A program made the position numbers and the translations under genes. 64,000 bases of DNA from Thermacetogenium phaeum DSM 12270 (GTDB lineage: Bacteria > Bacillota > DSM-12270 > Thermacetogeniales > Thermacetogeniaceae), in NCBI RefSeq assembly GCF_000305935.1, contig NC_018870.1, forward strand, positions 1,845,001 through 1,909,000, read 5' to 3'. Under the pieces are notes generated by a model that saw only the letters and a program-made list of their open reading frames with translations, did not search any database and was not told the DNA's origin. The stretch's first letter is position 1. Each line of letters opens with the position of its first letter. Below are positions 44,932-58,885 of this stretch, piece after piece.

Positions 44932-45017
44932 CAGCCCCTACCTCCTGGAAAAATCTTCACCCCTGTTTTAAATTATGACCTAATGCTATAATTTATTTAT
45001 TGCGCACTGAGGTGATC

Positions 45018-45455
45018 ATGATGATGAACATCAAAAAAGCGGTTGCCACAGGGTTGCAGGAAGGACTGGATACAACCTGGAATCTGGCGAAATTGATCAT
45101 CCCGATCTACTTCGTCATTACCATTCTGAAAAACACCCCTTTCTTATCCATGATCGCCTCCTTTTTTCAGCCTGCACTGGGGCTGGCAGGGGTACCTGGA
45201 GAAGCTGTCGTAGCCCTGATCATGGGGGCGTTCGTCAACGTCTACGCAGCCATCGCCGCCCTTTTGCCGCTCGTGCACTCTCTCCCTTTGAGCCCCAAGC
45301 AGATAACCATCATCGCCACAATGGTGTTGATCTGCCACAGCATACCCATGGAAAGCGCCGTCAGCCAGAAAACGGGGGTTCCCTTCTGGCTGGTGACCGT
45401 ACTGCGACTTGCCGTTGCCTTCATCATGGGAATATTATTGAATAAGGTGATGTAG
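45018..45455 (+). CDS. Gate-domain membrane protein, first of a pair
   Basis: A 145-residue membrane protein with about four hydrophobic segments and a nucleoside-recognition (Gate) domain; the GAFVNVYAAIAALLP stretch near residue 72 is typical. It forms a pair with the next gene, as SpmA and SpmB do, but is shorter than those. Three ATG codons follow GAGGTG; the first is at 45018, and the second, at 45021, has the best spacing. A transported substrate is not known. The peptidase gene on the other strand begins 86 bases upstream. Confidence 0.7.
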   Translation: MMMNIKKAVATGLQEGLDTTWNLAKLIIPIYFVITILKNTPFLSMIASFFQPALGLAGVPGEAVVALIMGAFVNVYAAIAALLPLVHSLPLSPKQITIIATMVLICHSIPMESAVSQKTGVPFWLVTVLRLAVAFIMGILLNKVM

Positions 45456-45458
45456 CGA

Positions 45459-45923
45459 ATGGAAGCAATTCTCAAAGAAGCCCTTACCGGCAGTATTAAC
45501 AGCATGCTGAAGATCGCCTGTATCGTCATTCCCTTAATGGTCGTCATGGAGCTCGCCCGCGAGGCCGACCTCCTGGAAAGATCGGCGAAGCTGTTCAGGC
45601 CCTTAACCGCTCTCCTCGGGGTCTCCCCGGCCGCCACCTTTCCCCTCCTCGCCGGCCTCGTTTTCGGGCTGGTTTACGGATCGGGGCTGATCATCCGCTC
45701 TGTGAGAGAGGGGAAAATACCCGCCGCAGAGAACTACCTGCTGAACATTTTTCTTAGCATTTGCCACGGCATGATCGAAGATACCCTGTTATTCCTGGCA
45801 GTCGGGGCCAGCGCAGTTGTGATCATCGGCGTCAGGTTAGCAGCAGGAGTGGCCATCACCAGACTCCTGGCATGTTTGCTCATCCGAAGGAGCCACCCCA
45901 CACAGAGGCTAGAATTGGGATAG
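45459..45923 (+). CDS. Gate-domain membrane protein, second of a pair
   Basis: A 154-residue membrane protein with a second Gate domain (LVFGLVYGSGLIIRS near residue 70 and CHGMIEDTLLF near 105). Its start lies three bases after the stop of its partner, so the two are co-translated and probably form a heteromeric membrane unit. Related pairs occur in spore maturation and in YjiG/YjiH-type systems, whose roles are unclear. The last ~15 residues are basic and soluble. Confidence 0.7.
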   Translation: MEAILKEALTGSINSMLKIACIVIPLMVVMELAREADLLERSAKLFRPLTALLGVSPAATFPLLAGLVFGLVYGSGLIIRSVREGKIPAAENYLLNIFLSICHGMIEDTLLFLAVGASAVVIIGVRLAAGVAITRLLACLLIRRSHPTQRLELG

Positions 45924-45937
45924 AAAGGAAGGAAGAT

Positions 45938-46597
45938 ATGGCTTCTGATGAGGAAAAACGGGAAAAAAGGCTGGCCGCAGAAGTGCTGAAACGCCTGAGC
46001 AGAGAACATCCGGACGCCGGACCGCGCCTTCACTTCTCCAACCCCTATCAGGCGCTGGTGGCCACCATCCTTTCCGCCCAGACCACCGATGAACAGGTAA
46101 ACAGGGTAACACCCATCTTCTTCAAAAGGTATCCGGATGTAACGGCGCTGGCCCGCGCCAGTGTAGATGAGGTGGCAGACGTCATCAAGTCAACAGGGCT
46201 GTACAGGTCGAAGGCCGCCCATCTCGTGGCCGCAGCCAAAAAGATAGCTGCCGAACACGGCGGAGAGGTGCCAAGCGACCTCCACCCCCTTCTGGAGCTT
46301 CCGGGGGTGGGGAGAAAAACCGCCAACGTCGTCCTCGCCAACGCCTTCGGCAAACCGGGGCTCGGAGTGGACACCCACGTCCACAGGGTTGCCAACAGGA
46401 TCGGCCTATGCTCGGAGAAGCACCCCGAGGGAACGGAGAAGAGGCTCAAGGAGTTGCTTCCGGAAAGGGATTGGGGAAGAGCCCACCACCTCCTGATCTT
46501 TCACGGACGGCGGTTCTGCCGGGCGAGGAAACCGGAATGCCCCTCCTGCGTTTTACGGGACATCTGCAGAAGCTCCCCTTCAGCTTCACTTAAGTGA
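45938..46597 (+). CDS. nth: Endonuclease III
   Basis: A 219-residue HhH-GPD DNA glycosylase/AP lyase that removes oxidised pyrimidines. The catalytic lysine K127 is in PGVGRKTANV, the catalytic aspartate D145 in GVDTHVHR, and the 4Fe-4S cysteines are C194, C201, C204 and C210 (spacing 6, 2, 5). ATG 45938 follows GGAAGGAAG; an earlier frame runs over the previous gene and is not used. It lies 14 bases after the Gate pair and may share its transcript. Confidence 0.96.
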   Translation: MASDEEKREKRLAAEVLKRLSREHPDAGPRLHFSNPYQALVATILSAQTTDEQVNRVTPIFFKRYPDVTALARASVDEVADVIKSTGLYRSKAAHLVAAAKKIAAEHGGEVPSDLHPLLELPGVGRKTANVVLANAFGKPGLGVDTHVHRVANRIGLCSEKHPEGTEKRLKELLPERDWGRAHHLLIFHGRRFCRARKPECPSCVLRDICRSSPSASLK

Positions 46598-46813: not shown

Positions 46814-47821
46814 CTAATCGCTGACATCAATTCTGGTCATCATCCCTCCCGGAAACTGGTCATTGTTCACCAGGTGATGGTATTCTCTATCGTACAGGTA
46901 GTATTGCCCGGGAGTGGTCGGAGCAATGACGATATCGGCACTTTGCCCTGAACCCAGGGTAATGCCCGTTATTTCATAGGTGGCATCCAACGACGGGCTT
47001 GCCAGGGGGAAGCCATCCTCGGCAATCACCCTGCCCACAAGACCGCCCAGATAAAAAGTGTGGTTCTGAAAACCGGCATTGATAACCCTTAACAGCACCC
47101 GTTGCCCAACCCGGCAGCTTACGCCGGACCCATACGGCTGGCCGGAGTTATTGTTGCCGTTAAGGGTATCGGGAAAACAGCGTCCGTTAATCACCCAGTA
47201 GTCAGGTTTGAACCTCAACATATTGTAGTAGGCTCCGGGGACAACGCTATTGTGCATTGTGCTATCGATTTCGGCCAGGACCAGTACCTTTTCAACGTCA
47301 TAAAAAGAACCCGTCCCGGAACCATATGCCGTCTTATAGTTGGGATGACCCGGCGTATTATAGCCGGGTGGCCTCACCACAATAACGCCGTAAATACCCA
47401 TTTGCACCTGTTTTTCGGAGTTGAATCCGCTTTCATACAGATAGATGCCGGGTTTTACAGCTTTAAACTGATAGACTATGAACAGATCGGAGGATTCGTC
47501 CAGATAATCGGCCAATGAGATCATGATCCTTCCTGAATATTGGGGCTGGACGGGCTGAGGGATAAAAGGGCCGCCCGGAAATTTGGTTACCATCACATTT
47601 TCCTGCCCGGGAAAAATCAGGGACAGCGGTTCCCCTAAAGGCTTCATGAAATTAGCAACTAAGTTTACAACCACTCGGTCGCCGGCCACAGCCTCTATGA
47701 AGGGACCCGGAGTTTGGGGAAAGCCGAACAATTCACCGGTTAAACCCCAAAAGGGGATGCTTTTGCCAGGTAAGGACAGCAACCCGGCGGCAACCTGAAA
47801 ATTCTTGATAACAATCGCCAT
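46814..47821 (-). CDS. Multicopper oxidase-like protein C, ligand-poor
   Basis: A 335-residue two-domain cupredoxin protein of the multicopper oxidase family. Both copper motif sites have decayed: domain 1 has FPGQ (70-73) where HWHG is expected and YESGFNSEKQ where the HCH motif should be, and domain 2 keeps only isolated histidines (NHTF, and YHH near the end). It therefore cannot bind a trinuclear cluster alone and may be a structural subunit. There is no signal peptide. GGAAAGGAGCGTC precedes the ATG, the same leader as for protein A. It is the last gene of the operon. Confidence 0.8.
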   Translation of the reverse strand: MAIVIKNFQVAAGLLSLPGKSIPFWGLTGELFGFPQTPGPFIEAVAGDRVVVNLVANFMKPLGEPLSLIFPGQENVMVTKFPGGPFIPQPVQPQYSGRIMISLADYLDESSDLFIVYQFKAVKPGIYLYESGFNSEKQVQMGIYGVIVVRPPGYNTPGHPNYKTAYGSGTGSFYDVEKVLVLAEIDSTMHNSVVPGAYYNMLRFKPDYWVINGRCFPDTLNGNNNSGQPYGSGVSCRVGQRVLLRVINAGFQNHTFYLGGLVGRVIAEDGFPLASPSLDATYEITGITLGSGQSADIVIAPTTPGQYYLYDREYHHLVNNDQFPGGMMTRIDVSD

Positions 47822-47844: not shown

Positions 47845-48999
47845 TTACTTCAGCACCCCGATATCAGGGGAAAGCGAAGGATAAATGGCAATCCAGGTCA
47901 TCATCCCGCCGGGAAATTCACCCCAGTTGGTTATCTGCAGCTCTTCATGGGAATGCAGCATAAAGTAATACTCACCGAACTCATTGTACGAAATAACCCC
48001 TACCGGGATATCACCTTTTACCCCGAAGTAAGGACTGCCGCTCCACATCGTCCATCCGGCATCGCCGATACCCATATTCCTCAAGTTGGGTAGGGTTGTA
48101 GGGATGGGGTTATCAGGGGTGAATCCCAAGCCTTCCCAGCGATAAATCAGATCGTAGGTCTGACCCGCACCGACCAGGACGGTGAAGCGTTGATAAGAGA
48201 GATCCGTACCGCCATTCCTCAGCAGCCTCCCATCCTTTCCGATTACCCTGGTATGTGCGCCATGAGGGTGAAGGGGGTGGTTATCAACGCCGGCACCGAT
48301 ATACCGCATCAGTATCTTTTCACCAGGCTGCCCCATGACCATGGAACCATACGGCTGGTGAGGAAGGTAATCCACGTCGTCCATCATCATTGTGTCAACG
48401 GCACAACGTCCATTCAAAGTCCAGTAGCGGGGTAGATATCTATTAACAAGATACGGCCTGCCCTCTTCCACGGCCTGGTGCAGTTGGGGGTCAATTTCCC
48501 CTGTTATCAACAGGTATTCCCGCTCAAATTCCGTATCCGTCCCGGCGCCGTATGCCGTCCTGTATTCCCTGACATCCGGATTGTAATCGGCAGGCCGCAC
48601 CACCAGGGCTCCATACAACCCCATAGGAACCTGTTTGTGGGGGCTGGAGCCACTCTCGTATACGAATGTTCCGGGATGTGTAGGTGTAAACGTATATGAA
48701 ACCGTTCCTCCCGGTTCGGCATGATTGACAAAGGACTTCAACCGGCCGTTGATATATTGAGGCTGAACCGGTCGTTCCTCCACCATGACTGCCGTTTGGC
48801 CCGGAAAGAAAACGGAAACAGGTTCGGACAGAGTATTGAACAGGTTAACGGTCACCGTTTCCCCCTGCTTAGCAATAATATGAGGGCCCGGCAGCAGCGC
48901 AGGACCGGTTTCCTCTTTTGCAAAACCCCAAAAATAGATGCTGTTGCCGTCTGGGGTGCTCAAATAGCCTTCCTTGGCCCAAAGGTTTATTACAGGCAT
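47845..48999 (-). CDS. Multicopper oxidase-like protein B, domain 2 ligands only
   Basis: A 384-residue two-domain cupredoxin protein. Domain 1 has lost its ligands (FPGQ at 65-68, YESGSSPHKQ at about 114-123). Domain 2 keeps HPLHPHG at 241-247 and HSH at 349-351, that is two HxH pairs for a trinuclear site, but serine stands where the T1 cysteine should be. It is thus the complement of protein A. There is no signal peptide. ATG 48999 follows GGAGAG. The spacing to its neighbours is about 23-60 bases. Confidence 0.82.
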   Translation of the reverse strand: MPVINLWAKEGYLSTPDGNSIYFWGFAKEETGPALLPGPHIIAKQGETVTVNLFNTLSEPVSVFFPGQTAVMVEERPVQPQYINGRLKSFVNHAEPGGTVSYTFTPTHPGTFVYESGSSPHKQVPMGLYGALVVRPADYNPDVREYRTAYGAGTDTEFEREYLLITGEIDPQLHQAVEEGRPYLVNRYLPRYWTLNGRCAVDTMMMDDVDYLPHQPYGSMVMGQPGEKILMRYIGAGVDNHPLHPHGAHTRVIGKDGRLLRNGGTDLSYQRFTVLVGAGQTYDLIYRWEGLGFTPDNPIPTTLPNLRNMGIGDAGWTMWSGSPYFGVKGDIPVGVISYNEFGEYYFMLHSHEELQITNWGEFPGGMMTWIAIYPSLSPDIGVLK

Positions 49000-49058
49000 C
49001 TTGCTCTCTCCTTTTATTCTCATAGGTGTTACTGGTTATGCCGGCACCCGTTCCACGT

Positions 49059-50057
49059 CTAAGGCGCCGGCAATACCCTGATTTCCGTGATCATCCCGCC
49101 AAACGATTTCCCCGCATTGGTATTCTTGTGCCAGTTGCGGTTATAAAGGGGATAGATTCCGGCAGACGGAGCAGTAAAGATCGCATCAACAGTTTGCCCC
49201 GCAGCAATAAAGATTGCATTCCTCCAGCGGCTGAGGTCTTCACCGTTATATCCCCGCAGCTGCCGGGCATCAAGCCCCACGACCTTCAAAGATATCCCCA
49301 GCACCTGGATGCTGTGCTGCTGATATCCAAGGTTTACAAAACGCAGCAACACCTTCTCCCCCTCGTAAGCCTCAATGAGGGATGAATAAGGTTGCATAGG
49401 CAAAGACGGGTCAGCGGCGGGTCTGACCGTGTCCGGATAGCTCCGCCCGTTGATTAACCAGTATTCCGGGCTGTATTCCGTCCAATCGAACTCCTGGACA
49501 TTTTCCAGCAGGTAATGGGGTTCGGCATCCAGTTCGGTCAGAAAAACTAGAGCTTCCCTGTCAAAGGCGGTGCTTTCGTCATTGTAGGCGAACTTCCCTC
49601 CCAGATCTATTTCCAGCCGGGGACGTACCGTCAGGGGACCTACCATCCCCATCTGGATATGCTCTACAGGTTCAAAATGGCAGTGATAGATGTAGGTACC
49701 GGGGTCCAGCGGCCGATAATAATAGGTGAAATCCCGGCCTACCGGAACGGAGATCGACGCCTCGGGAACTCCATCCCATATAGGAATTTGATTGGGAAAA
49801 CCATGCCAATGTATGGTATGGGTGTCATCCAAATCCGGCCGGTTCGGAAAACCCAGGTTAGTCAGGGTTAAATAAACCTCATCACCCTCGTAGACTTGCA
49901 GCAACGGGGCAAGCAGGGTAGCCCTGCCGCGGTATTCAAAAATCCGGTCTTCAGGAACACCGGTAATATCCACAAAACCAAATATGTAGTGCCTGGTACT
50001 GTCGGGCATAACAACCCACCCGTCTGTTGCACCAAAACGCTTTCTTACTGTAGCCAT
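49059..50057 (-). CDS. Multicopper oxidase-like protein A, domain 1 ligands with T1 site
   Basis: A 332-residue two-domain cupredoxin protein. Domain 1 has HTIHWHG (H80, H83, H85) and HCH 125-127 followed by H133 and M138. This supplies a complete T1 set (H80, C126, H133, M138) and two HxH pairs of a trinuclear cluster. Domain 2 keeps only single histidines (H248, H310). In two-domain laccases the cluster forms at the interface of neighbouring subunits, so protein B could supply the missing pairs. No signal peptide is seen. ATG 50057 follows GGAAAGGAGCGTC. Confidence 0.85.
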   Translation of the reverse strand: MATVRKRFGATDGWVVMPDSTRHYIFGFVDITGVPEDRIFEYRGRATLLAPLLQVYEGDEVYLTLTNLGFPNRPDLDDTHTIHWHGFPNQIPIWDGVPEASISVPVGRDFTYYYRPLDPGTYIYHCHFEPVEHIQMGMVGPLTVRPRLEIDLGGKFAYNDESTAFDREALVFLTELDAEPHYLLENVQEFDWTEYSPEYWLINGRSYPDTVRPAADPSLPMQPYSSLIEAYEGEKVLLRFVNLGYQQHSIQVLGISLKVVGLDARQLRGYNGEDLSRWRNAIFIAAGQTVDAIFTAPSAGIYPLYNRNWHKNTNAGKSFGGMITEIRVLPAP

Positions 50058-50078: not shown

Positions 50079-53000
50079 CTAAGGAACGAGCATGTGCTCA
50101 TAGGCCCCGATATCGTAGCCCGTTCCCTGGGGCCTGGTATTGCCATCGAAATCTTTTTCCGGGGCATTAAAGGTTTCAGTCTCTCCGGCGACCCTGTCGA
50201 TACCCCGGTCGATCACCGGGGAACCCCCGGTAAGATGGTAATCACCGGTTAGTTCGGGATCAACGGTCACTATCCTGACCGACTTGAAGTCCGGTTCCAT
50301 ATTGAATGCTACAGCCGTTACCTCAGTATCGTACTCACTCACAAATTCCGGATCCACGTAGATATTGTTGCTGCCTCCGTCATACGATCGTGACAAGCTG
50401 CAGTATTGAGGATTAAACAGAGCAGGGCCCCCAAAAACCTCTAAATCCATAATGTTAACAGGTTGCGGGTCCCCGGCGGCCCCTATGCCGCCGATGCCCC
50501 CCCTGCCGTTGTTCAGATCCTGATTAAAAGTACCGGCTCTGTTATCCCAGAAAATATTATTAAACAGGACCGGATCGCTGTAACCGGGAGAGCCGGGGTG
50601 CACTACATCGAGGTAAGCCCGGAAAGCAGCACTGTGAGGTTCACTTACAAGCCCGGCGCCGTGAGGCCTGCCGTCGCTGTCCTCCGCCGTGGCAGTAGTG
50701 ATGTTCTTGGCAATGGTGTTGTTCACAATTACGACGTTGGAGGCATCATCAAGAGCTACGCCACCCCCCAGGTCGGTGGAAACATTGTTGACAACAACGT
50801 TGTTGTAAATGTTGATCCGGTAATCCAGGGGCTGCAGCAACCGGATCCCCCCGCCGTCATCGTTGGCAAGGTTGCCCTGGATGAGATTATTATAGATATC
50901 GACCTCCCCCGAGCCGGCAGTCAGTGTTTCCGGGGGGACGGGCTGTTCCCCGCCCACAAACACACCTGCACCCTCGTCAAAGGAGGCGTTAAACAGCACA
51001 CGATTATGGTGGATCTTACCACCGGGGCTGTAACCGTAGTGGGATATGCCTCCACCGTATTCAGCGGAGTAATTGCCGCAGATATCGTTATAAGCGATTT
51101 CGTAGTTGTCGGCACCGTTGAAGATACCGATACCACCGGCCAGGCTGATGCCGCCGTTGTTCAGGATGCGGTTGTGGTGGATGTAAATGTTATCATTGTA
51201 ATTGTCTCCGACATAGGCCGTTCCGATGGTAATAGCCCCGCCGAAACCACCACCGTTGCTCTGGATAATGTTATTGCTGATAACCAGATAACTGCAATGT
51301 GCATTAACATATATTCCGCCGCCCTCTTCACCCCTTGCCCCGGTGATCCTGAAACCGTCCACCTGGGGTCTAAAGGCACCGCTGAACGCCCCTGCTCTGG
51401 CAACCACAGTTAATACCTGGCCCCTGCTTATCTCTTTTACCCGGTCTGGTGGCACCAGTTCCGGCCCGTCAAATTCAATACCGGACAGTTTGTCAAGCCA
51501 CCTGTCGCGATAAGTTAGAAAGAAGCGGCCATCGATGACGGTTCCCGCAACTGCGGATCCGTCCGGCCTGATGCCTCCGGGTCCCCGACCCTGGAGCTTG
51601 ACGTTCTTGTACAGGATCGGGTTTTCGTAATAAGTTTCTGCTGATACGACAATAATTGCCCCGTCAGGCGCACTGTCTATAGCATCCTGAATAGTGGTAA
51701 AATCCTGTGTGCCATCCTTTTTCACCGTAATGACGGGCGGCCAGTATACCCCCTGCCGGCGCAGGTGAAAGGTGATGCCTGTCGGGCTGGTTTTTCCGGC
51801 GGCGTTGGTTACCAGCAGTTGCGTAGGGCCCGGGGGTACGGCATTGAATCCCCGGGGAACAAGGACACGAATGAGCCGGTCGGTCCACTCCAGGATGTCG
51901 ATTTCCTTCCCGTTCAAGGTTACCTTACCGGGAGAATCCCCGAAACCCGTGCCCAGTATGGTAACAGTCCGGTTATCATCATTCTGGTGCATCACGTTTG
52001 CCTGGATACGGCTGACCCGGAATATTTGAGGTGTATCTGCCGGAACAGCACATTGCGGGGGCTGCGAGAATTGTGCTCCGGGCGTTCCGACAAAAGCCGT
52101 GATCGGGAATAAGGCCACATCGGCATAAGTTGTTTTCCCGGGCCAGACATCAAAAACCATCTTCAGGGTCTGGTAATTAGGGTTGTAGTGCTCATTGGGA
52201 TTGTCCGGATCCCCAGGATCGTTCCCGATGACCTGGTACATCCCCGGGGCCACTCCGGAGGGGGTAGGTACATTACGGGTGTAGGTGGACGGTAACAGCA
52301 CCTCGAAGATGCCGTTGACATCGGAATGAACCGTGGTTATCAACCTGCCGGCAAAATCCCTGATGCCCACGGGGGTGTTGGGGATACCTCTTTTTTCACC
52401 GTAGTATATGAAACCAGGATTGGTCTCGAGGTTGACATCATCCAGCAGGAAGCCAACAATGCGGCCGGGAATGGGAACATCGGTATACAGGAAGAAGTCG
52501 GCTGTGGCGTTAAGCCCTTCGGAAACCCTTACGATCTTCTTGGTGGTATCAATGCCGGGAGGTGCCGGGTAGTAAGGCGGGGGCGCCATGCGCATGAGAA
52601 AAGTTTGGGCACTTCCTGCGAATTCATCCCCCTGATCGGTATTGACGGAGCCATCCCTATCAATCGCCTTATATCCGGTGGGTGGTACCACCTCCACGAT
52701 ATAAGTGCCGGAAGGAAGCGGTATTTCTACCGCATCGGGGTGGCTGTAATAAGGATCCCAGCAGGTCTCAAAGGCGTAACCGCCGTCAAACCCCCCGGGT
52801 CTGATCTGGTTGGAGATGTTGGGAACCTCGGTACAGTTCTGGTCAACGTTGCCGTCGGGATCCATGCACCCGGTGGGGTGTTCCCAGGCCTCTGTAGTAA
52901 CGGTGTTGATAAGGTTTCCCTGAACCACTTTGCCGTCCGAATCCGTAATTGCTGCGTAAAGGTTAAGGGTTACGTTCGGAATCCCGGGTTCGTAATCTTC

Positions 53001-54653
53001 GGCGATTGCATACCTGGGGTCGGTCTCGTTGCGCATGGTGGCATAATAAACCATGCCGGAAATACCCCCGTTCTCTCCCTTTTTGTAAACCCGTTTGCCC
53101 CAGTCAATACGGTTGGTTTTGGCCGCCCATGTCAGCTCGGCCAGGGTTAAAACATCTGTGTAGGTCTGAGAACACCTGACGTAATTACCGCGTGCATCAC
53201 GGCACAAAACGGCGGGGTTCACAGGATCAGGCACCGGGATGCCGTAATCGGGCGTAGCTGTTGCCCCGGTATATCCCAGACGGGTAAAACCCACCTCTGC
53301 CACAGCAAATCGTTCCAATTCAAAAACCTCATCTAAGCTATAATCCCCGTGCATATCCGTTATCGTCCGGTACTGAATACTGCCGTCTTTAAAACGGGTG
53401 CCAACCTCAACACTAGGGACACCACTTTCCCCGGGGTCACGGACTCCGTTCCCGTTGCTGTCGTTAAATACGGTGCCCTTGATATACCCGAACCATCTGG
53501 GTATACCGATATCACCCATAGCGACCGTTTCACCGCGGCCCACCTGAACAGTGCGAAAAGAGATAATATGATCCAGAGGTTCATCCCAGATAGCCATTTG
53601 ATAAAGCCCCGGTGGAACGTTCTCGATGGTAAAGTTGCCGTTGCCGTCCCCGCGCCCGGTATAAACCTGCTGGTCGTTCGCTCCGATGTCGCTGAGCGCT
53701 ATCCAGGGGCGGTCCACGGGATCCCCCAGAGTCAGCGGTCTGAAAGGAGGGATGAATTCAATGATGGTGCGCACCCTGCCGGTAATTCTCCCTGTCTCCC
53801 AGGGGCGTGGCGGGCCGAATTCCATCGGCCTGACAAACCCTATCCATACCAAGGGCATCCGGAAACCCTCCCTGGGGCTGTAACCGTCATTACCTTCCTC
53901 TATCCAGACATCTATTGTATGAGTCCCTTCAATGGTAGTCGTTTGGATCCAATCCGTGCCGTCCGGCGGAATGGCCTGCACCCCGTATTTTCCGGGAGGA
54001 AGGTTGTCGATCAGAGCGTCCCCGTTACTATCAGTAAGGATTTTTCCCCCTGTACCCGGAACAGGAACGGGTTTACCTGTACCGGGGTCAAGAATCAAGT
54101 TGCCCGAGGCATCCCGTTCATACTCCGTACCAAGCGGGTTACCGAAATAGTCTACAGTCACCTCACCGACTGCATCTGTAATTATTACTCTGAACCCTTC
54201 CAACCCACTTTCCAGCGGCACGTCGTCCTCTCCGTTAACCGGCCTGTTGTCGTGAAAGACATGCACCCTTATTCTGGAAAGGGGTAAAGGATTGGGATGC
54301 AATTTAATTTCCACAGTTTTGTCGGTACCGGTCGTTGTCACCCAATTACCGCCCAACTTGTAACCTGGAGCCAATACAGAAACCAGGTATCGGCCGTTGG
54401 GGAGTGACACCACCGGTTGTGAGGTATCCGAAGCTTCTCCCACAGCAACCACCGGACTGTGACTGGCCCCCGGTCTTAATGAAGGAAACAAACTCGGATC
54501 ACGTTCTTCTTCAGGAAGTTCGACCTGGGGATCGCCGACGTTGTTTTCGTTGACAATGTATTTGAATGTTAAAACGGGGACACCGGTGATAACATCTCTG
54601 GCTATAACAGTAAGTTTGCCGTTATCCACATTTCCGTCATGAGGACCGTTCAC
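50079..54653 (-). CDS. Giant repeat scaffold protein with SdrD-like, IPT/TIG and beta-helix domains
   Basis: A 1524-residue protein. The N-terminal ~870 residues hold several Cna-B/SdrD-like domains; the most complete has a calcium-loop motif NDSNGNGVRDPGE near 395. An IPT/TIG domain follows at about 880-960 (ILGTGFGDSPGKVTLNG), then a right-handed beta-helix to about 1480 with repeats such as IYNNVVVNN, ending in the DIGAYEH motif. Such folds are normally exported, yet there is no signal peptide, transmembrane segment or sorting signal. GTG 54653 follows GAGGAGG, eleven bases away. It leads the operon with the three copper proteins. Confidence 0.85.
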   Translation of the reverse strand: MNGPHDGNVDNGKLTVIARDVITGVPVLTFKYIVNENNVGDPQVELPEEERDPSLFPSLRPGASHSPVVAVGEASDTSQPVVSLPNGRYLVSVLAPGYKLGGNWVTTTGTDKTVEIKLHPNPLPLSRIRVHVFHDNRPVNGEDDVPLESGLEGFRVIITDAVGEVTVDYFGNPLGTEYERDASGNLILDPGTGKPVPVPGTGGKILTDSNGDALIDNLPPGKYGVQAIPPDGTDWIQTTTIEGTHTIDVWIEEGNDGYSPREGFRMPLVWIGFVRPMEFGPPRPWETGRITGRVRTIIEFIPPFRPLTLGDPVDRPWIALSDIGANDQQVYTGRGDGNGNFTIENVPPGLYQMAIWDEPLDHIISFRTVQVGRGETVAMGDIGIPRWFGYIKGTVFNDSNGNGVRDPGESGVPSVEVGTRFKDGSIQYRTITDMHGDYSLDEVFELERFAVAEVGFTRLGYTGATATPDYGIPVPDPVNPAVLCRDARGNYVRCSQTYTDVLTLAELTWAAKTNRIDWGKRVYKKGENGGISGMVYYATMRNETDPRYAIAEDYEPGIPNVTLNLYAAITDSDGKVVQGNLINTVTTEAWEHPTGCMDPDGNVDQNCTEVPNISNQIRPGGFDGGYAFETCWDPYYSHPDAVEIPLPSGTYIVEVVPPTGYKAIDRDGSVNTDQGDEFAGSAQTFLMRMAPPPYYPAPPGIDTTKKIVRVSEGLNATADFFLYTDVPIPGRIVGFLLDDVNLETNPGFIYYGEKRGIPNTPVGIRDFAGRLITTVHSDVNGIFEVLLPSTYTRNVPTPSGVAPGMYQVIGNDPGDPDNPNEHYNPNYQTLKMVFDVWPGKTTYADVALFPITAFVGTPGAQFSQPPQCAVPADTPQIFRVSRIQANVMHQNDDNRTVTILGTGFGDSPGKVTLNGKEIDILEWTDRLIRVLVPRGFNAVPPGPTQLLVTNAAGKTSPTGITFHLRRQGVYWPPVITVKKDGTQDFTTIQDAIDSAPDGAIIVVSAETYYENPILYKNVKLQGRGPGGIRPDGSAVAGTVIDGRFFLTYRDRWLDKLSGIEFDGPELVPPDRVKEISRGQVLTVVARAGAFSGAFRPQVDGFRITGARGEEGGGIYVNAHCSYLVISNNIIQSNGGGFGGAITIGTAYVGDNYNDNIYIHHNRILNNGGISLAGGIGIFNGADNYEIAYNDICGNYSAEYGGGISHYGYSPGGKIHHNRVLFNASFDEGAGVFVGGEQPVPPETLTAGSGEVDIYNNLIQGNLANDDGGGIRLLQPLDYRINIYNNVVVNNVSTDLGGGVALDDASNVVIVNNTIAKNITTATAEDSDGRPHGAGLVSEPHSAAFRAYLDVVHPGSPGYSDPVLFNNIFWDNRAGTFNQDLNNGRGGIGGIGAAGDPQPVNIMDLEVFGGPALFNPQYCSLSRSYDGGSNNIYVDPEFVSEYDTEVTAVAFNMEPDFKSVRIVTVDPELTGDYHLTGGSPVIDRGIDRVAGETETFNAPEKDFDGNTRPQGTGYDIGAYEHMLVP

Positions 54654-54736
54654 CTTAATAACAGCCTCCTCAACTGTTTATTAATTAACGATTCTCTTTG
54701 CCTAAACTGTCCTGGACCAAAGAAAAAAATTTTCTA

Positions 54737-54764
54737 TAATATATGAATCAAAGCGTTAAACGGT
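54737..54764 (-). promoter_or_regulatory. Candidate sigma-K promoter of the copper-protein operon
   Basis: On the minus strand ACC (54764-54762) is followed after 16 bases by CATATATTA (54745-54737), which fits the sigma-K pattern AC-N16/17-CATANNNTA used in the mother cell for spore coat genes. It lies about 85 bases before the start codon. Confidence 0.45.
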
Positions 54765-54952: not shown

Positions 54953-55918
54953 TCAGCCCACTTTGGCCTCCCACTTCCCACACCGACCGCCCCATCGGGC
55001 GATCACTTCGCCGTTCTGATAGAACTGCACCACTTCGCACATGTTGGGGCAGCCCTTGCAGATAAAGCTGCGCGCCTGGAATTTGAAATCGGTCACCTCG
55101 AACCCCTTGAACTTCGTAGCGCCGCCCGTGCGCTGCACCGCCTCCCGGGCCAGGATTGCCGCCCCCAGGGCGCCCATCACGGAAAAATACTTGGGAACGA
55201 TCACCTCCTGCTGGAGGGCCTTCTCAAACGCTCGCTTCATCCCGGCGTTAGCGGCGACACCCCCCTGGAAGGCGATAGGAGGGAGGATTTCCTTACCCTT
55301 GCCGACATTGTTCAGGTAGTTGCGCACCAGCGCCTCGCAGAGGCCGGCAATAATATCCTCCACGCTGTGGCCGAGCTGCTGCTTGTGGATCATGTCGGAC
55401 TCGGCAAAAACGGCGCACCTCCCGGCGATCCGCACCGGGTTCTCCGATTTCAGCGCCAGTTCCCCGAACTGCTCAATGGCAATGTTCAGACGGGCCGCCT
55501 GCTGGTCCAGAAAGGAGCCGGTTCCGGCGGCACAAACCGTATTCATGGCGAAGTCGGTGACGATCCCGTCCCGCAGAATGATAATCTTGGAGTCCTGCCC
55601 TCCGATCTCCAAAATGGTCTGCACACCGGGGACAAACCGGGAGGTGGCCACCGCATGGGCGGTGATTTCGTTTTTGATAACATCGGCTCCGATCATAACG
55701 CCTGCCAGATGCCTGGCGCTTCCCGTCGTACCCGCAGCCCGGATCACCACATCACCGGGAACCTGGTCTTTAAGCTGTTCCATGCCCTCCTGGATAACCC
55801 TGATCGGCTGTCCTTTGGTCCTGATATACAGGGAGGCCAGCACTTCATCTTGTTCATCGATAACAACTAAGTTGGTGCTCACCGAACCCACATCGAGCCC
55901 CAAAAATCCGTCTCTCAC
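54953..55918 (-). CDS. BadF/BcrA-type CoA-dehydratase activase
   Basis: A 321-residue ASKHA ATPase of the 2-hydroxyacyl-CoA dehydratase activator family. The nucleotide-binding start GLDVGSVSTNLVV and the cluster region CAAGTGSFLDQQ (about residue 129) are typical. A further cysteine set, CKGCPNMCE near 288, follows at the C-terminus. Activases use ATP to inject one electron into a dehydratase or reductase. No dehydratase gene is beside it. It overlaps the previous gene by four bases. Confidence 0.87.
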   Translation of the reverse strand: MRDGFLGLDVGSVSTNLVVIDEQDEVLASLYIRTKGQPIRVIQEGMEQLKDQVPGDVVIRAAGTTGSARHLAGVMIGADVIKNEITAHAVATSRFVPGVQTILEIGGQDSKIIILRDGIVTDFAMNTVCAAGTGSFLDQQAARLNIAIEQFGELALKSENPVRIAGRCAVFAESDMIHKQQLGHSVEDIIAGLCEALVRNYLNNVGKGKEILPPIAFQGGVAANAGMKRAFEKALQQEVIVPKYFSVMGALGAAILAREAVQRTGGATKFKGFEVTDFKFQARSFICKGCPNMCEVVQFYQNGEVIARWGGRCGKWEAKVG

Positions 55919-57048
55919 CAGCTATTCCTCCCAGCAGGCGAACTTACTGCAAGTCGCTTTTCCCTAGCTTTTTTCTGCTCTCGCTTCCTCTGAAGCAAAT
56001 CCAAAAAGGCCTCCAGCCTCGTTAAGACACCGGTTACCGCCGTCTGCTCATCGATAAAAATGGTCATGACGGGGATCCCCAGTTCTCTGCTGACACGGGG
56101 GAGAATACCTTTGGCCACGATCTCGGGGATGCAGGAAAAGGGCGCCAGCTGAATGACGCCGTCATAGCCGTCCCTGGCATAAAGCACCGTCTCCCCGATG
56201 CTGTTGATGCCGTGGCCGCCGATCATTACCCCTAGATAGGGATGGGCAACTTTATGGATATCCCGTTCCCCGACATTCCCCTCCTTGACGACATTCTTCT
56301 GAGTGTAAGAAGTCAGCCAGATGGAGCGGTTGCTATAAACCCCTCTCTCACCCAGCAGCTTCTGAATGTAAAAATTCACCGCAGGCTCCAGAACGACGTA
56401 AATCTCCCCCACAATCCCGACCCTTAAGGGATCGCGGCTCCTGTCCTGGGGCACCCTGGAGATAAGCTTCCTGGCCTCGTGGCGCGCCTCCTCAATCTCC
56501 TCCAGAGTATAGGCCTGGTCGAGCATGGAGAGCCCCTTCTTAAAGGCCTTTTCCGCCTCCCCCTTGACGGTCTCATAGGGCATGACCTCATACATCAGAT
56601 ATTCTATTTCATCAATGGCTTCAAGCTTGGTATACCCCTTTTTGATCAGCTGCCAGAAGCGGCGCCAGGACATGCGCCGGGGCTTGACCATCCTCAGCTT
56701 CTTGATAAAGTCCAGGATATTGGAACGTGGCGGGTCGAAGATCAGCACCGTGAAGTTGCACCCGAGTTCATCGAGGATCTTCTGGTGCATGACGCCGTAG
56801 TACCCCGCCCTGCAGGGGCCAACGCCACCTGAGGATATCGCCATCTCCGCCCCCATCTCAATGGTTTCCAAATAGGTGCCCAGCAATACCTTGAAGGGGA
56901 TGCAGGCAAACTCCGGCGCATACCGGACACCCAGGTCGAAGGTCCTCTTGCTGGGTTCCGGCGGGATCACCGGCTCATAACCCAGGTCGCTGATTAACAT
57001 TTTAAAAGCAATATAAGAGTAGCCCATGTGCGGAAAGGTAATTTTCAC
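55915..57048 (-). CDS. DUF2229-type activase-associated protein
   Basis: A 377-residue protein of the family associated with CoA-substrate activases (DUF2229/HgdB-like). The motif GGVGPCRAGYYG near residue 75 and ACIPFK near 48 hold conserved cysteines that may bind a cluster, and QLAPFSCIPEI near 307 adds another. In other Clostridia these domains are part of one large protein with BadF units; here they are separate. It overlaps both neighbours by four bases (ATGA). The reaction is not known. Confidence 0.8.
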   Translation of the reverse strand: MKITFPHMGYSYIAFKMLISDLGYEPVIPPEPSKRTFDLGVRYAPEFACIPFKVLLGTYLETIEMGAEMAISSGGVGPCRAGYYGVMHQKILDELGCNFTVLIFDPPRSNILDFIKKLRMVKPRRMSWRRFWQLIKKGYTKLEAIDEIEYLMYEVMPYETVKGEAEKAFKKGLSMLDQAYTLEEIEEARHEARKLISRVPQDRSRDPLRVGIVGEIYVVLEPAVNFYIQKLLGERGVYSNRSIWLTSYTQKNVVKEGNVGERDIHKVAHPYLGVMIGGHGINSIGETVLYARDGYDGVIQLAPFSCIPEIVAKGILPRVSRELGIPVMTIFIDEQTAVTGVLTRLEAFLDLLQRKREQKKAREKRLAVSSPAGRNSW

Positions 57049-58043
57049 TCCAGCCCTCTTCTCCTTTTCAACATATCTACAAAAGCCTCCAGACGGGTCT
57101 GGATGCCCCCGGCCCCAGTTTCCTCATCGATGGAAACGGCAAGAAAAGGCACCCGCCCCCGCTCCCGGGCTGCATACTCGAGCAGCCTATCCAGCATGGC
57201 ATCAGGGCCGCATGCAAATGCCGTAACGTGCACTATTCCGTCGACCAGACCTCTGTTCAGATAATAAAAGGCGGCATGCAGGGCGCGGTTGGAATAGTGC
57301 CAGAACATATGCTTCGGCATTACCCCTGCTTCCCTCAGCAGCGAACGGGGCGGTACCATTTCGGCAGTGAGCACAGACACCCCGAGGCTTTCCAGGCGTT
57401 TAATCAGGTCAAGGTTGGTGAAGCGATCATAGACGGTGTAGGGATAACCCAGGACGGCCAAAGAAATGCCCGACCGGCCCCTCTTCGCGGCAACAGTTGG
57501 ACGTTTCTTTAACCCCTTCTCTAGGTACTCCATGGCCTTCTCCGGCATATTCCCCTGTAAGAGCAGCTGCTGATAGCGCCGGAAAACACCCCTGGCACGC
57601 CAGTAGGCCCGAACGACGGTGGAGAAATCGGCTCTAAACCTCTCTCCGAGCTCCCTGCAGATGCGAAAAAGCTCGAATCTTCCCCGAGCCAGATCAACCC
57701 GGGTTTCCAGCACCTCCGGCAGGCCGCTGATGGAGGCTCTGAGGAGGTCGGGAAGCCCCCGGAATTTCGGGCAGAAGGTTTCGGTCCCGAACCTGCGGAC
57801 GCTGAGGAGGCGAGGCACAAAAAGAAGATCGACCTTATCCTTGATCTCCATGACGTGCCCGTGATACAGCTTGATGGGGATGCAGGCATCATTAACCGCC
57901 TCCGCGACTCCATCATCAAGAGTCTTTTGGGTGGTAGGAGAGGAGACCACCACCTGAAGCCCCAGCTCCTCGAAAAAGGTTTTCCATAAAGGATAATACG
58001 AAAAATAAGCCAGATACCGTGGAATACCAACCCGGACCGGCAT
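57045..58043 (-). CDS. Second DUF2229-type activase-associated protein
   Basis: A 332-residue protein of the same wider family as its neighbour. It opens with MPVRVGIPRYLAYFSYYPLW and has DACIPIK near residue 65 and AFACGPDAMLD near 260, whose cysteines could hold a cluster. The end (DEETGAGGIQTRLEAF) is close to that of the neighbouring protein (DEQTAVTGVLTRLEAF), so they share a C-terminal domain. ATG 58043 follows GAGGAGG. It is the gene after tetR in the operon. Confidence 0.8.
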   Translation of the reverse strand: MPVRVGIPRYLAYFSYYPLWKTFFEELGLQVVVSSPTTQKTLDDGVAEAVNDACIPIKLYHGHVMEIKDKVDLLFVPRLLSVRRFGTETFCPKFRGLPDLLRASISGLPEVLETRVDLARGRFELFRICRELGERFRADFSTVVRAYWRARGVFRRYQQLLLQGNMPEKAMEYLEKGLKKRPTVAAKRGRSGISLAVLGYPYTVYDRFTNLDLIKRLESLGVSVLTAEMVPPRSLLREAGVMPKHMFWHYSNRALHAAFYYLNRGLVDGIVHVTAFACGPDAMLDRLLEYAARERGRVPFLAVSIDEETGAGGIQTRLEAFVDMLKRRRGLE

Positions 58044-58059
58044 GGCGGCTCCAACCTCC

Positions 58060-58683
58060 TCAGCACCTGCAGGAATTTGCTTCGACACCTTTCAGCCAGA
58101 TATCCAGAAATTGTGCCAGCTCTCTTTCTCCATCTGCATTCTCCCGGTCCTCCGCCATCTCCTTCCAGACAAGGTAGCCCCAGAGAGCGGCCAGCAGCGA
58201 AAGGGCCATCAGATCGGCATCGAGGCGGCGAAAATCGCCGGCCACCTGCTTTTGCTTGATCGGTTCTCTGAGCAGGTCGATAACCGGCCTGGCAATCTTC
58301 TGATACATCGCTTCTCTGACTTCGGAGTGGAACTGGGCTTCGTAAAAAAGCAGCTTCAACATTGGAAGGTATTGTTGAATTGAGCTTAACTGATCCTTGA
58401 TGAGGCGGATTAACAGCTGAGGATCGCTCTCGCAGCCCTTCCTCTCAATTATTCCGGCCAGGGAAAGCGCAATTTCCGGCTTTTGGAAATTGTTGACCGC
58501 CTGCAAGAGAATACCTTGAAGGATCCCCTTCTTGGTGCCGAAATGACGGAAGACTGTTCCCTCGGCTACGCCTGCCTTTTGGGCGATCTCGCTGGTAGTC
58601 GCCCCTTCAAAGCCCTTCTCTGAAAAGACCTTAATAGCAGCTTCAATGATCTTTTTTTGGGTACAGTTTAAACCGGAACTCAT
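58060..58683 (-). CDS. TetR family regulator
   Basis: A 207-residue TetR/AcrR repressor with the HTH near residues 25-46 (TTSEIAQKAGVAEGTVFRHF). The C-terminal domain is helical and resembles regulators of fatty-acid or acyl-CoA metabolism, in line with the activase genes downstream. ATG 58683 is chosen, although the GGAGG upstream is rather far; a long N-terminal extension in frame has no support. A perfect palindrome and a consensus promoter lie upstream, so it very likely represses itself and the whole operon. Confidence 0.9.
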   Translation of the reverse strand: MSSGLNCTQKKIIEAAIKVFSEKGFEGATTSEIAQKAGVAEGTVFRHFGTKKGILQGILLQAVNNFQKPEIALSLAGIIERKGCESDPQLLIRLIKDQLSSIQQYLPMLKLLFYEAQFHSEVREAMYQKIARPVIDLLREPIKQKQVAGDFRRLDADLMALSLLAALWGYLVWKEMAEDRENADGERELAQFLDIWLKGVEANSCRC

Positions 58684-58714
58684 TTCCGGACGATGCCTCC
58701 AGGGAACTCTTTTA

Positions 58715-58736
58715 TGAGAGTGATTACTCACTCTCA
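58715..58736. promoter_or_regulatory. TetR operator
   Basis: TGAGAGTGA 58715-58723 and TCACTCTCA 58728-58736 form a perfect inverted repeat with a TTAC spacer, directly downstream of the -10 box. It resembles in layout the TGAATGA/TCATTCA operator of Bacillus FadR. Confidence 0.85.
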
Positions 58737-58737
58737 G

Positions 58738-58766
58738 ATTATAGGTAAGATCGCAGTTCTTGTCAA
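58738..58766 (-). promoter_or_regulatory. Consensus sigma-A promoter of the TetR operon
   Basis: On the minus strand TTGACA (58766-58761) and TATAAT (58743-58738) are both perfect and are separated by exactly 17 bases. This is the strongest promoter visible in the window and has the operator directly downstream. Confidence 0.9.
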
Positions 58767-58885
58767 CAATTAATGGCATTACGGCCAGCTTTGTACCAGG
58801 TATGCCAGGGGGAAACACAAGGCACACCATCTTCCAGATTAATTGTTGAGAGAACACTCAATACTAAGTCAAGGAGGTGAGAGGG

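Follow-up and report, generated by a model that had tools for sequence, protein, structure and literature searches.

A four-gene cluster in the genome of a spore-forming lineage probably encodes one multiprotein copper oxidase complex, in which three sister proteins (C, B, and A) would form a ring with a single active site, a giant protein (D) would serve as scaffold, and the whole would be placed on the spore surface in Bacillota; we put the chance that this reading is right at roughly two in three. The observations on which it draws, all read directly from sequence, are the conservation of the cluster, the complementary retention of copper ligands, a fusion of A with D, a contrast in export signals between phyla, and the enrichment of a promoter motif. 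The genes lie within a 64,000-nt stretch of a 2.94-Mb single-contig Bacillota genome (G000:C1:1845001-1909000, hereafter the window), where D is followed on the minus strand by C, B, and A, almost end to end and with gaps of ~20-35 nt:

50079..54653, minus strand: gene D, GTG start, 1,524 aa; multidomain scaffold protein without a signal peptide
49059..50057, minus strand: gene C, two-domain cupredoxin of 332 aa; type-1 site and half of a trinuclear site in domain 1
47845..49023, minus strand: gene B, two-domain cupredoxin; no ligands in domain 1, the complementary four His in domain 2
46814..47821, minus strand: gene A, two-domain protein of cupredoxin fold that has no copper ligand set; in Burkholderiales it is fused to D

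The first-pass annotation of this DNA had described a giant gene together with copper proteins at 50079-54764. The cluster is real, but the C, B, and A genes fall outside that interval, and the term "copper proteins" suits the three products unequally: all match Pfam Cu-oxidase families, with two cupredoxin domains each, but only C has a complete type-1 site, while B has just four trinuclear-type His and A has no ligand set. As for the surroundings, positions 45000-45923 of the window hold a pair of neighbouring genes that weakly match FeoB/PRK10519 and the spore protein YlbJ; they may form a nucleoside-recognition gate pair, and they adjoin nth (45761-46597). Upstream of the cluster (54953-58857), a 2-hydroxyacyl-CoA dehydratase activase-type gene of the BadF/BcrA family comes first, with more minus-strand ORFs after it.

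The division of copper ligands between C and B can be followed at four places in the window:

49791..49823, minus strand: C ligand segment HTIHWHGFPNQ; H79 belongs to the type-1 site, H82 and H84 to the trinuclear half
49647..49697, minus strand: C ligand segment YIYHCHFEPVEHIQMGM; H124 and H126 belong to the trinuclear half, C125, H132, and M135 to the type-1 site
48262..48279, minus strand: B domain 2 motif HPLHPH; HxH present in 41/41 B proteins
47947..47955, minus strand: B domain 2 motif HSH; HxH present in 40/40 B proteins that reach it

Ligands were counted in 43 C proteins, comprising 28 from Bacillota and 15 others (the broken rows of L054, a broken cluster of genome G183, and a fragment of L051 were omitted). 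In domain 1, 43/43 have the type-1 His, Cys, and His and 42/43 the axial Met; all four trinuclear-type His of that domain are present in 42/43, and the full set of eight domain-1 ligands in 41/43, the exceptions being L090 and L117 (Met-to-Leu). The four domain-2 His of B are found in 40/40 complete B proteins. Domain 1 of B has no Cys in any of 41 proteins, and A likewise has none at the type-1 position; across the 43 C proteins and the A proteins aligned, HxH was never found in domain 2 of C and no ligand set was found in A. A type C two-domain oxidase carries both trinuclear halves in one chain, which neither protein does, C being without the domain-2 half and B without the domain-1 half.

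The known structure closest to this arrangement is instructive. The Nitrosomonas europaea blue copper oxidase 3G5W, of type C, shares with the cluster its two-domain fold, its domain-1 type-1 site, and the splitting of His over the two domains; its domain 1 aligns with domain 1 of C and its domain 2 with domain 2 of B. However, 3G5W holds both halves in a single chain, whereas the cluster has two gene products and a ligand-less third sister. The available part of PMC13151041 describes two-domain oxidases as trimers that place the trinuclear site between domain 1 of a subunit and domain 2 of its neighbour. A structural model of C (mean pLDDT 77.9, pTM 0.82) superposes on 3g5w with a Z of 24.0 over 260 residues (rmsd 2.7), 3g5w and 2zwn being the best or tied best matches. 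In the model of B, domain 2 is mostly below a pLDDT of 50, and the Foldseek matches of B rest mainly on domain 1.

The four non-type-1 His of C (42/43) and the four His of B (40/40) have been retained in a way that makes sense only if they meet, and a single copper site between C and B is the simplest account of these sequences; together, the two proteins look like one split multicopper-oxidase site, for which enzymatic activity is predicted. The same retention argues against the alternative that makes C no more than a blue copper protein and has every two-domain protein build a homotrimer of its own, with no shared trinuclear site. That alternative can point to a two-domain fold that is complete in each chain and to the one His that remains at the domain-2 site of Bacillota C proteins (28/28). 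It is further opposed by locus L090 of genome G061, which has C and A only, with neither B nor D; here C has lost three of its four trinuclear His (HWH to YWE, HCH to HCY) while retaining every type-1 ligand. The C of L090 is the only one to have lost trinuclear His, and a joint loss of B and of C ligands was seen just once. On balance we consider separate homotrimers unlikely.

If a shared site is accepted, C, B, and A would together amount to six cupredoxin domains with one predicted trinuclear site. This resembles ceruloplasmin and the MnxG-type oxidases, which the available part of PMC3600357 describes as having six cupredoxin domains and one trinuclear site, with the difference that those proteins are one chain and the cluster has three separate genes. 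According to the same part of that article, type-1 copper sits in domain 2 of prokaryotic six-domain proteins; in the cluster, by contrast, the first of two paired domains carries it. Oxidases with two domains, oxidases with six, and spore oxidases without a signal are all known already. Our searches of the open-licence PMC literature turned up no account of an active site encoded by two genes or of the D-C-B-A cluster; the available part of PMC10732223 does not treat the cluster.

The fourth partner, D, combines several domains of surface type:

53325..53474, minus strand: D residues 394-443, SdrD_B-like domain (Pfam PF17210, E 5.8e-19)
51765..51974, minus strand: D residues 894-963, IPT/TIG domain (Pfam PF01833)
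50700..51692, minus strand: D residues ~988-1318, right-handed beta-helix with a NosD-like start (PF13229 and TIGR04247, sub-threshold)
50097..50243, minus strand: D residues 1471-1519, choice-of-anchor Q domain (NCBIfam NF041518, above cut-off)

Pfam also matches CarboxypepD_reg and fn3_3 in D, with SpaA and Beta_helix just below cut-off. No LPXTG or transmembrane anchor was seen at the end of D. Two family assignments were tried and rejected. D has an SdrD_B domain in common with the SdrD-type MSCRAMM surface proteins but differs from them in having no signal peptide and in scoring 19.9 against an SdrD family cut-off of 2500; its beta-helix gives a sub-threshold match to NosD, a periplasmic copper-maturation protein, but the 23.7 bits obtained are far under the family cut-off of 300, and no nos genes appeared among the window neighbours scanned with Pfam and NCBIfam. 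Three loci (L033, L036, and L054) have a D interrupted by a split or deletion near residue 829, where its repeat half meets its TIG/beta-helix half; fission of the gene, its decay, or an error of assembly could explain these breaks.

HMM matches to D accompany C in nearly all other loci, with the exceptions of L090, where D has been lost, and of truncated contigs. The D-C-B-A order recurs in Bacillota, Chloroflexota, and Actinomycetota. Burkholderiales differ: the two loci read from them, both in plasmid records, have the arrangement C-B-A::D, with A and D joined in one chain of ~2,700 aa. A fusion of this kind is commonly taken as evidence that the parts associate physically.

Overall, the cluster was found in 29 Bacillota loci and in 15 loci of Chloroflexota, Actinomycetota, Dormibacteraeota, and Burkholderiales. 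Of the 398 Bacillota genomes sampled, 19 have a full-length C orthologue by our count; Desulfallas, Desulfotomaculum, Thermincola, Moorella, and Tepidibacillus are among the named carriers. Outside Bacillota, matches to C at E 1e-40 or better come from 9/350 sampled genomes of the phylum of Thermoflexus and from 3/346 sampled genomes of the phylum to which the Ilumatobacter locus belongs. Among the nine, G649 was dropped from our counts: its oxidase (L113) is a separate one, on a 3-kb contig that showed no further part of the cluster. Among 72,556 plasmid records, D occurs in eight, all from Cupriavidus or Paraburkholderia, and the same eight hold C and B. The cluster is absent from the 19 other genomes listed for the same family, which makes its distribution patchy.

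The occurrences in Chloroflexota, Actinomycetota, Dormibacteraeota, and Burkholderiales rule out confinement of the cluster to spore formers. The first-pass annotation had proposed a spore-surface unit and named occurrence in nonsporulating relatives as an observation that would speak against it; Chloroflexota, Actinomycetota, and Burkholderiales indeed carry the cluster. Since the copies in nonsporulating bacteria have signal peptides, however, this finding favors a relocation of the complex rather than overturning the spore reading.

The contrast in export signals is complete among the proteins whose N-termini could be read, as judged by length ahead of the domain, by hydrophobicity, and by eye. 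An N-terminal hydrophobic signal is absent from D, C, B, and A in the window, as had been claimed at the outset. Signals are found in 0/28 D, 0/29 C, 0/26 B, and 0/27 A proteins of Bacillota, and outside Bacillota in 12/12, 15/15, 15/15, and 14/14, respectively. Not counted were the D proteins of L115 and L117 (cut by the locus edge), D of L053 (not on the contig), and A of L116 (not on the contig); in the two fused A::D proteins the signal sits on A, and these are included in both the D and the A totals. The non-Bacillota C signals comprise 13 of twin-arginine type and two of Sec type. In Bacillota, C starts straight on its domain in almost all cases, and an alternative upstream start in L043 is likewise without a hydrophobic stretch. 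Twin-arginine signals on other Bacillota oxidases (L019 and L020) were picked up in the same scan, so signals are detectable in this phylum. In the C tree, a branch supported at 99/98 separates the 28 Bacillota rows from the rest, which is consistent with a single loss of the signal; the direction of change depends on where the tree is rooted.

Upstream of D lies a candidate promoter:

54737..54764, minus strand (reads 54764 down to 54737): sigma-K-like site ACC-N16-CATATATTA, upstream of D

The site, initially suggested to fit a sigma-K promoter, outscores every one of 200 dinucleotide shuffles of the region in which it lies. To compare loci, we searched the 180 nt upstream of D with the motif (m)AC(m), 15-17 nt, CATANNNTA at a threshold of 8 points, using what we take to be the sigma consensus sequences. 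A similar motif occurs at comparable distances upstream of D in relatives. At least 8 points are reached before D in 11/22 Bacillota representatives, against 1.4 expected from dinucleotide shuffling (z 4.6), and in 16/28 of all Bacillota D upstream regions, against 2.6 expected (z 5.1). The motif is found before none of the C (0/22), B (0/21), or A (0/21) genes, before none of the non-Bacillota D genes (0/10), and in 8/114 other intergenic regions of the same loci (Fisher p 5.5e-6 versus the D upstream regions). The comparison across relatives, which had been put forward as a check, yields an enrichment in Bacillota, but the other 11/22 representative D upstream regions fall short of the motif score.

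To type the −35 element, the −10 element was picked blind to it; 6 of the 22 regions had no −10 of 5 or more points, leaving 16. Among these, AC at sigma-K spacing occurs in 10/16, ATA at sigma-E spacing in 4/16, and a loose TTGACA in 7/16. Our preference for sigma-K over sigma-E follows from the AC element (10/16 versus 4/16) and from the presumed consensus, and a sigma-E or sigma-A reading of the D promoter may also apply. The available part of PMC5025042 does not spell out the sigma-K consensus.

With regard to sporulation itself, the host genome has SpoIVA and Spo0A, and its sigK is in two parts 3.7 kb apart (C1:1687071-1691801, equivalent to L118:572-5302, outside the window), with a 517-aa large serine recombinase between them. 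This skin-like element of ~3.7 kb, whose recombinase carries Resolvase, Recombinase, and zinc-ribbon domains, contains few other genes and is small for a skin element. SpoIVA is present in 27/29 Bacillota carriers (18/19 plus 9/10) and in 0/5 of the other genomes or records. Because SpoIVA is also present in 336/398 genomes of the sampled phylum, the figure for carriers is weak evidence, and we set aside association with sporulation genes as a main argument. The two carriers that miss SpoIVA are G341, which has Spo0A, and G1108, which does not; the latter (locus L047, the SURF_36 MAG, of unknown completeness) has a signal-less cluster. In sum, the proposed spore-surface unit gains from the concerted absence of signals, the sigma-K-like motif before D, and the skin-interrupted sigK of the host, but sits less easily with L047/G1108.

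That carrier, the missing export signals, and the lack of a clear sigma-K site in half of the D promoters would all suit a complex that works inside vegetative cells, either in the cytoplasm or after release by lysis (in copper handling, for example), with no link to spores. We think this improbable, given the enrichment of the motif upstream of D in Bacillota only and the surface-type repeat and beta-helix folds of D; in addition, oxidising copper sites are unusual in the cytosol. Less probable still is a vegetative cell-surface complex that leaves by nonclassical export and acts in extracellular electron transfer or adhesion, as its homologues are exported in other phyla and some carrier genera, such as Thermincola, are metal-reducing, but four separate proteins are all without signals in one clade, the end of D has no anchor, and a sporulation-type promoter precedes D.

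Placement on the spore surface, which we continue to prefer, invites comparison with the CotA laccase of Bacillus spores, a copper oxidase without a signal peptide that is thought to be made in the mother cell. The two are alike in that Bacillota C proteins have no signal peptide (0/29) and D is preceded by a sigma-K-type motif (as an enrichment only). They differ in that CotA has its complete site in a single chain of three domains and no scaffold gene, whereas C has two domains in 332 aa. The parallel originally drawn with CotA consequently applies to the type, a signal-less copper oxidase, but not to the architecture, which here would be a split enzyme rather than a complete three-domain oxidase.

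The following course of events would account for these observations. As sister two-domain cupredoxins, C, B, and A would assemble into a hetero-trimeric ring resembling the homotrimers that two-domain multicopper oxidases form; to a single active site at the C/B junction, C domain 1 would contribute the type-1 copper and four His and B domain 2 the other four His, and A would be the structural subunit tying the ring to the giant scaffold D. In nonsporulating phyla the parts would be exported, by Tat for most C proteins and by Sec for the others. In Bacillota, all four proteins would have lost their export signals and gained a sigma-K-type promoter, such that sigma-K would drive D-C-B-A transcription in the mother cell. 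We infer that the ring, held to D by A, would be laid with D on the coat or exosporium, that copper may be loaded after mother-cell lysis, and that the oxidase would act at the spore surface after release, once oxygen and substrate are available. Metal ions or phenolics may be its substrates, these guesses being taken from MnxG and CotA. A more elaborate version, on which we would place somewhat less than an even bet, treats the complex as a hetero-trimeric counterpart of ceruloplasmin in which the NosD-like beta-helix may help to load copper, and which the ancestor of the Bacillota copies would have turned from an exported machine into a spore-surface one by losing four signals and adding a sigma-K promoter.

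If the proposed complex is real, it would be a multicopper oxidase with an active site built from two different proteins, two of its three potential sites having been erased. How homotrimeric two-domain oxidases could have led to six-domain ceruloplasmin has long been discussed, and the complex would mark a natural midpoint on that route. It would likewise be a clear example of the redirection of a whole exported complex to the spore surface, through which anaerobic spore formers would gain a copper enzyme on the spore.

We note in addition a second family of signal-less multicopper oxidases, of ~510-570 aa, in other Bacillota (L010-L014 and L077-L081). Its members are related to domain 1 of C (~50% identity), and the genomes that carry them include three of the window's own family. 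A missing signal is therefore not unique to the D-C-B-A cluster in this phylum, and the family is a possible further spore-surface oxidase.
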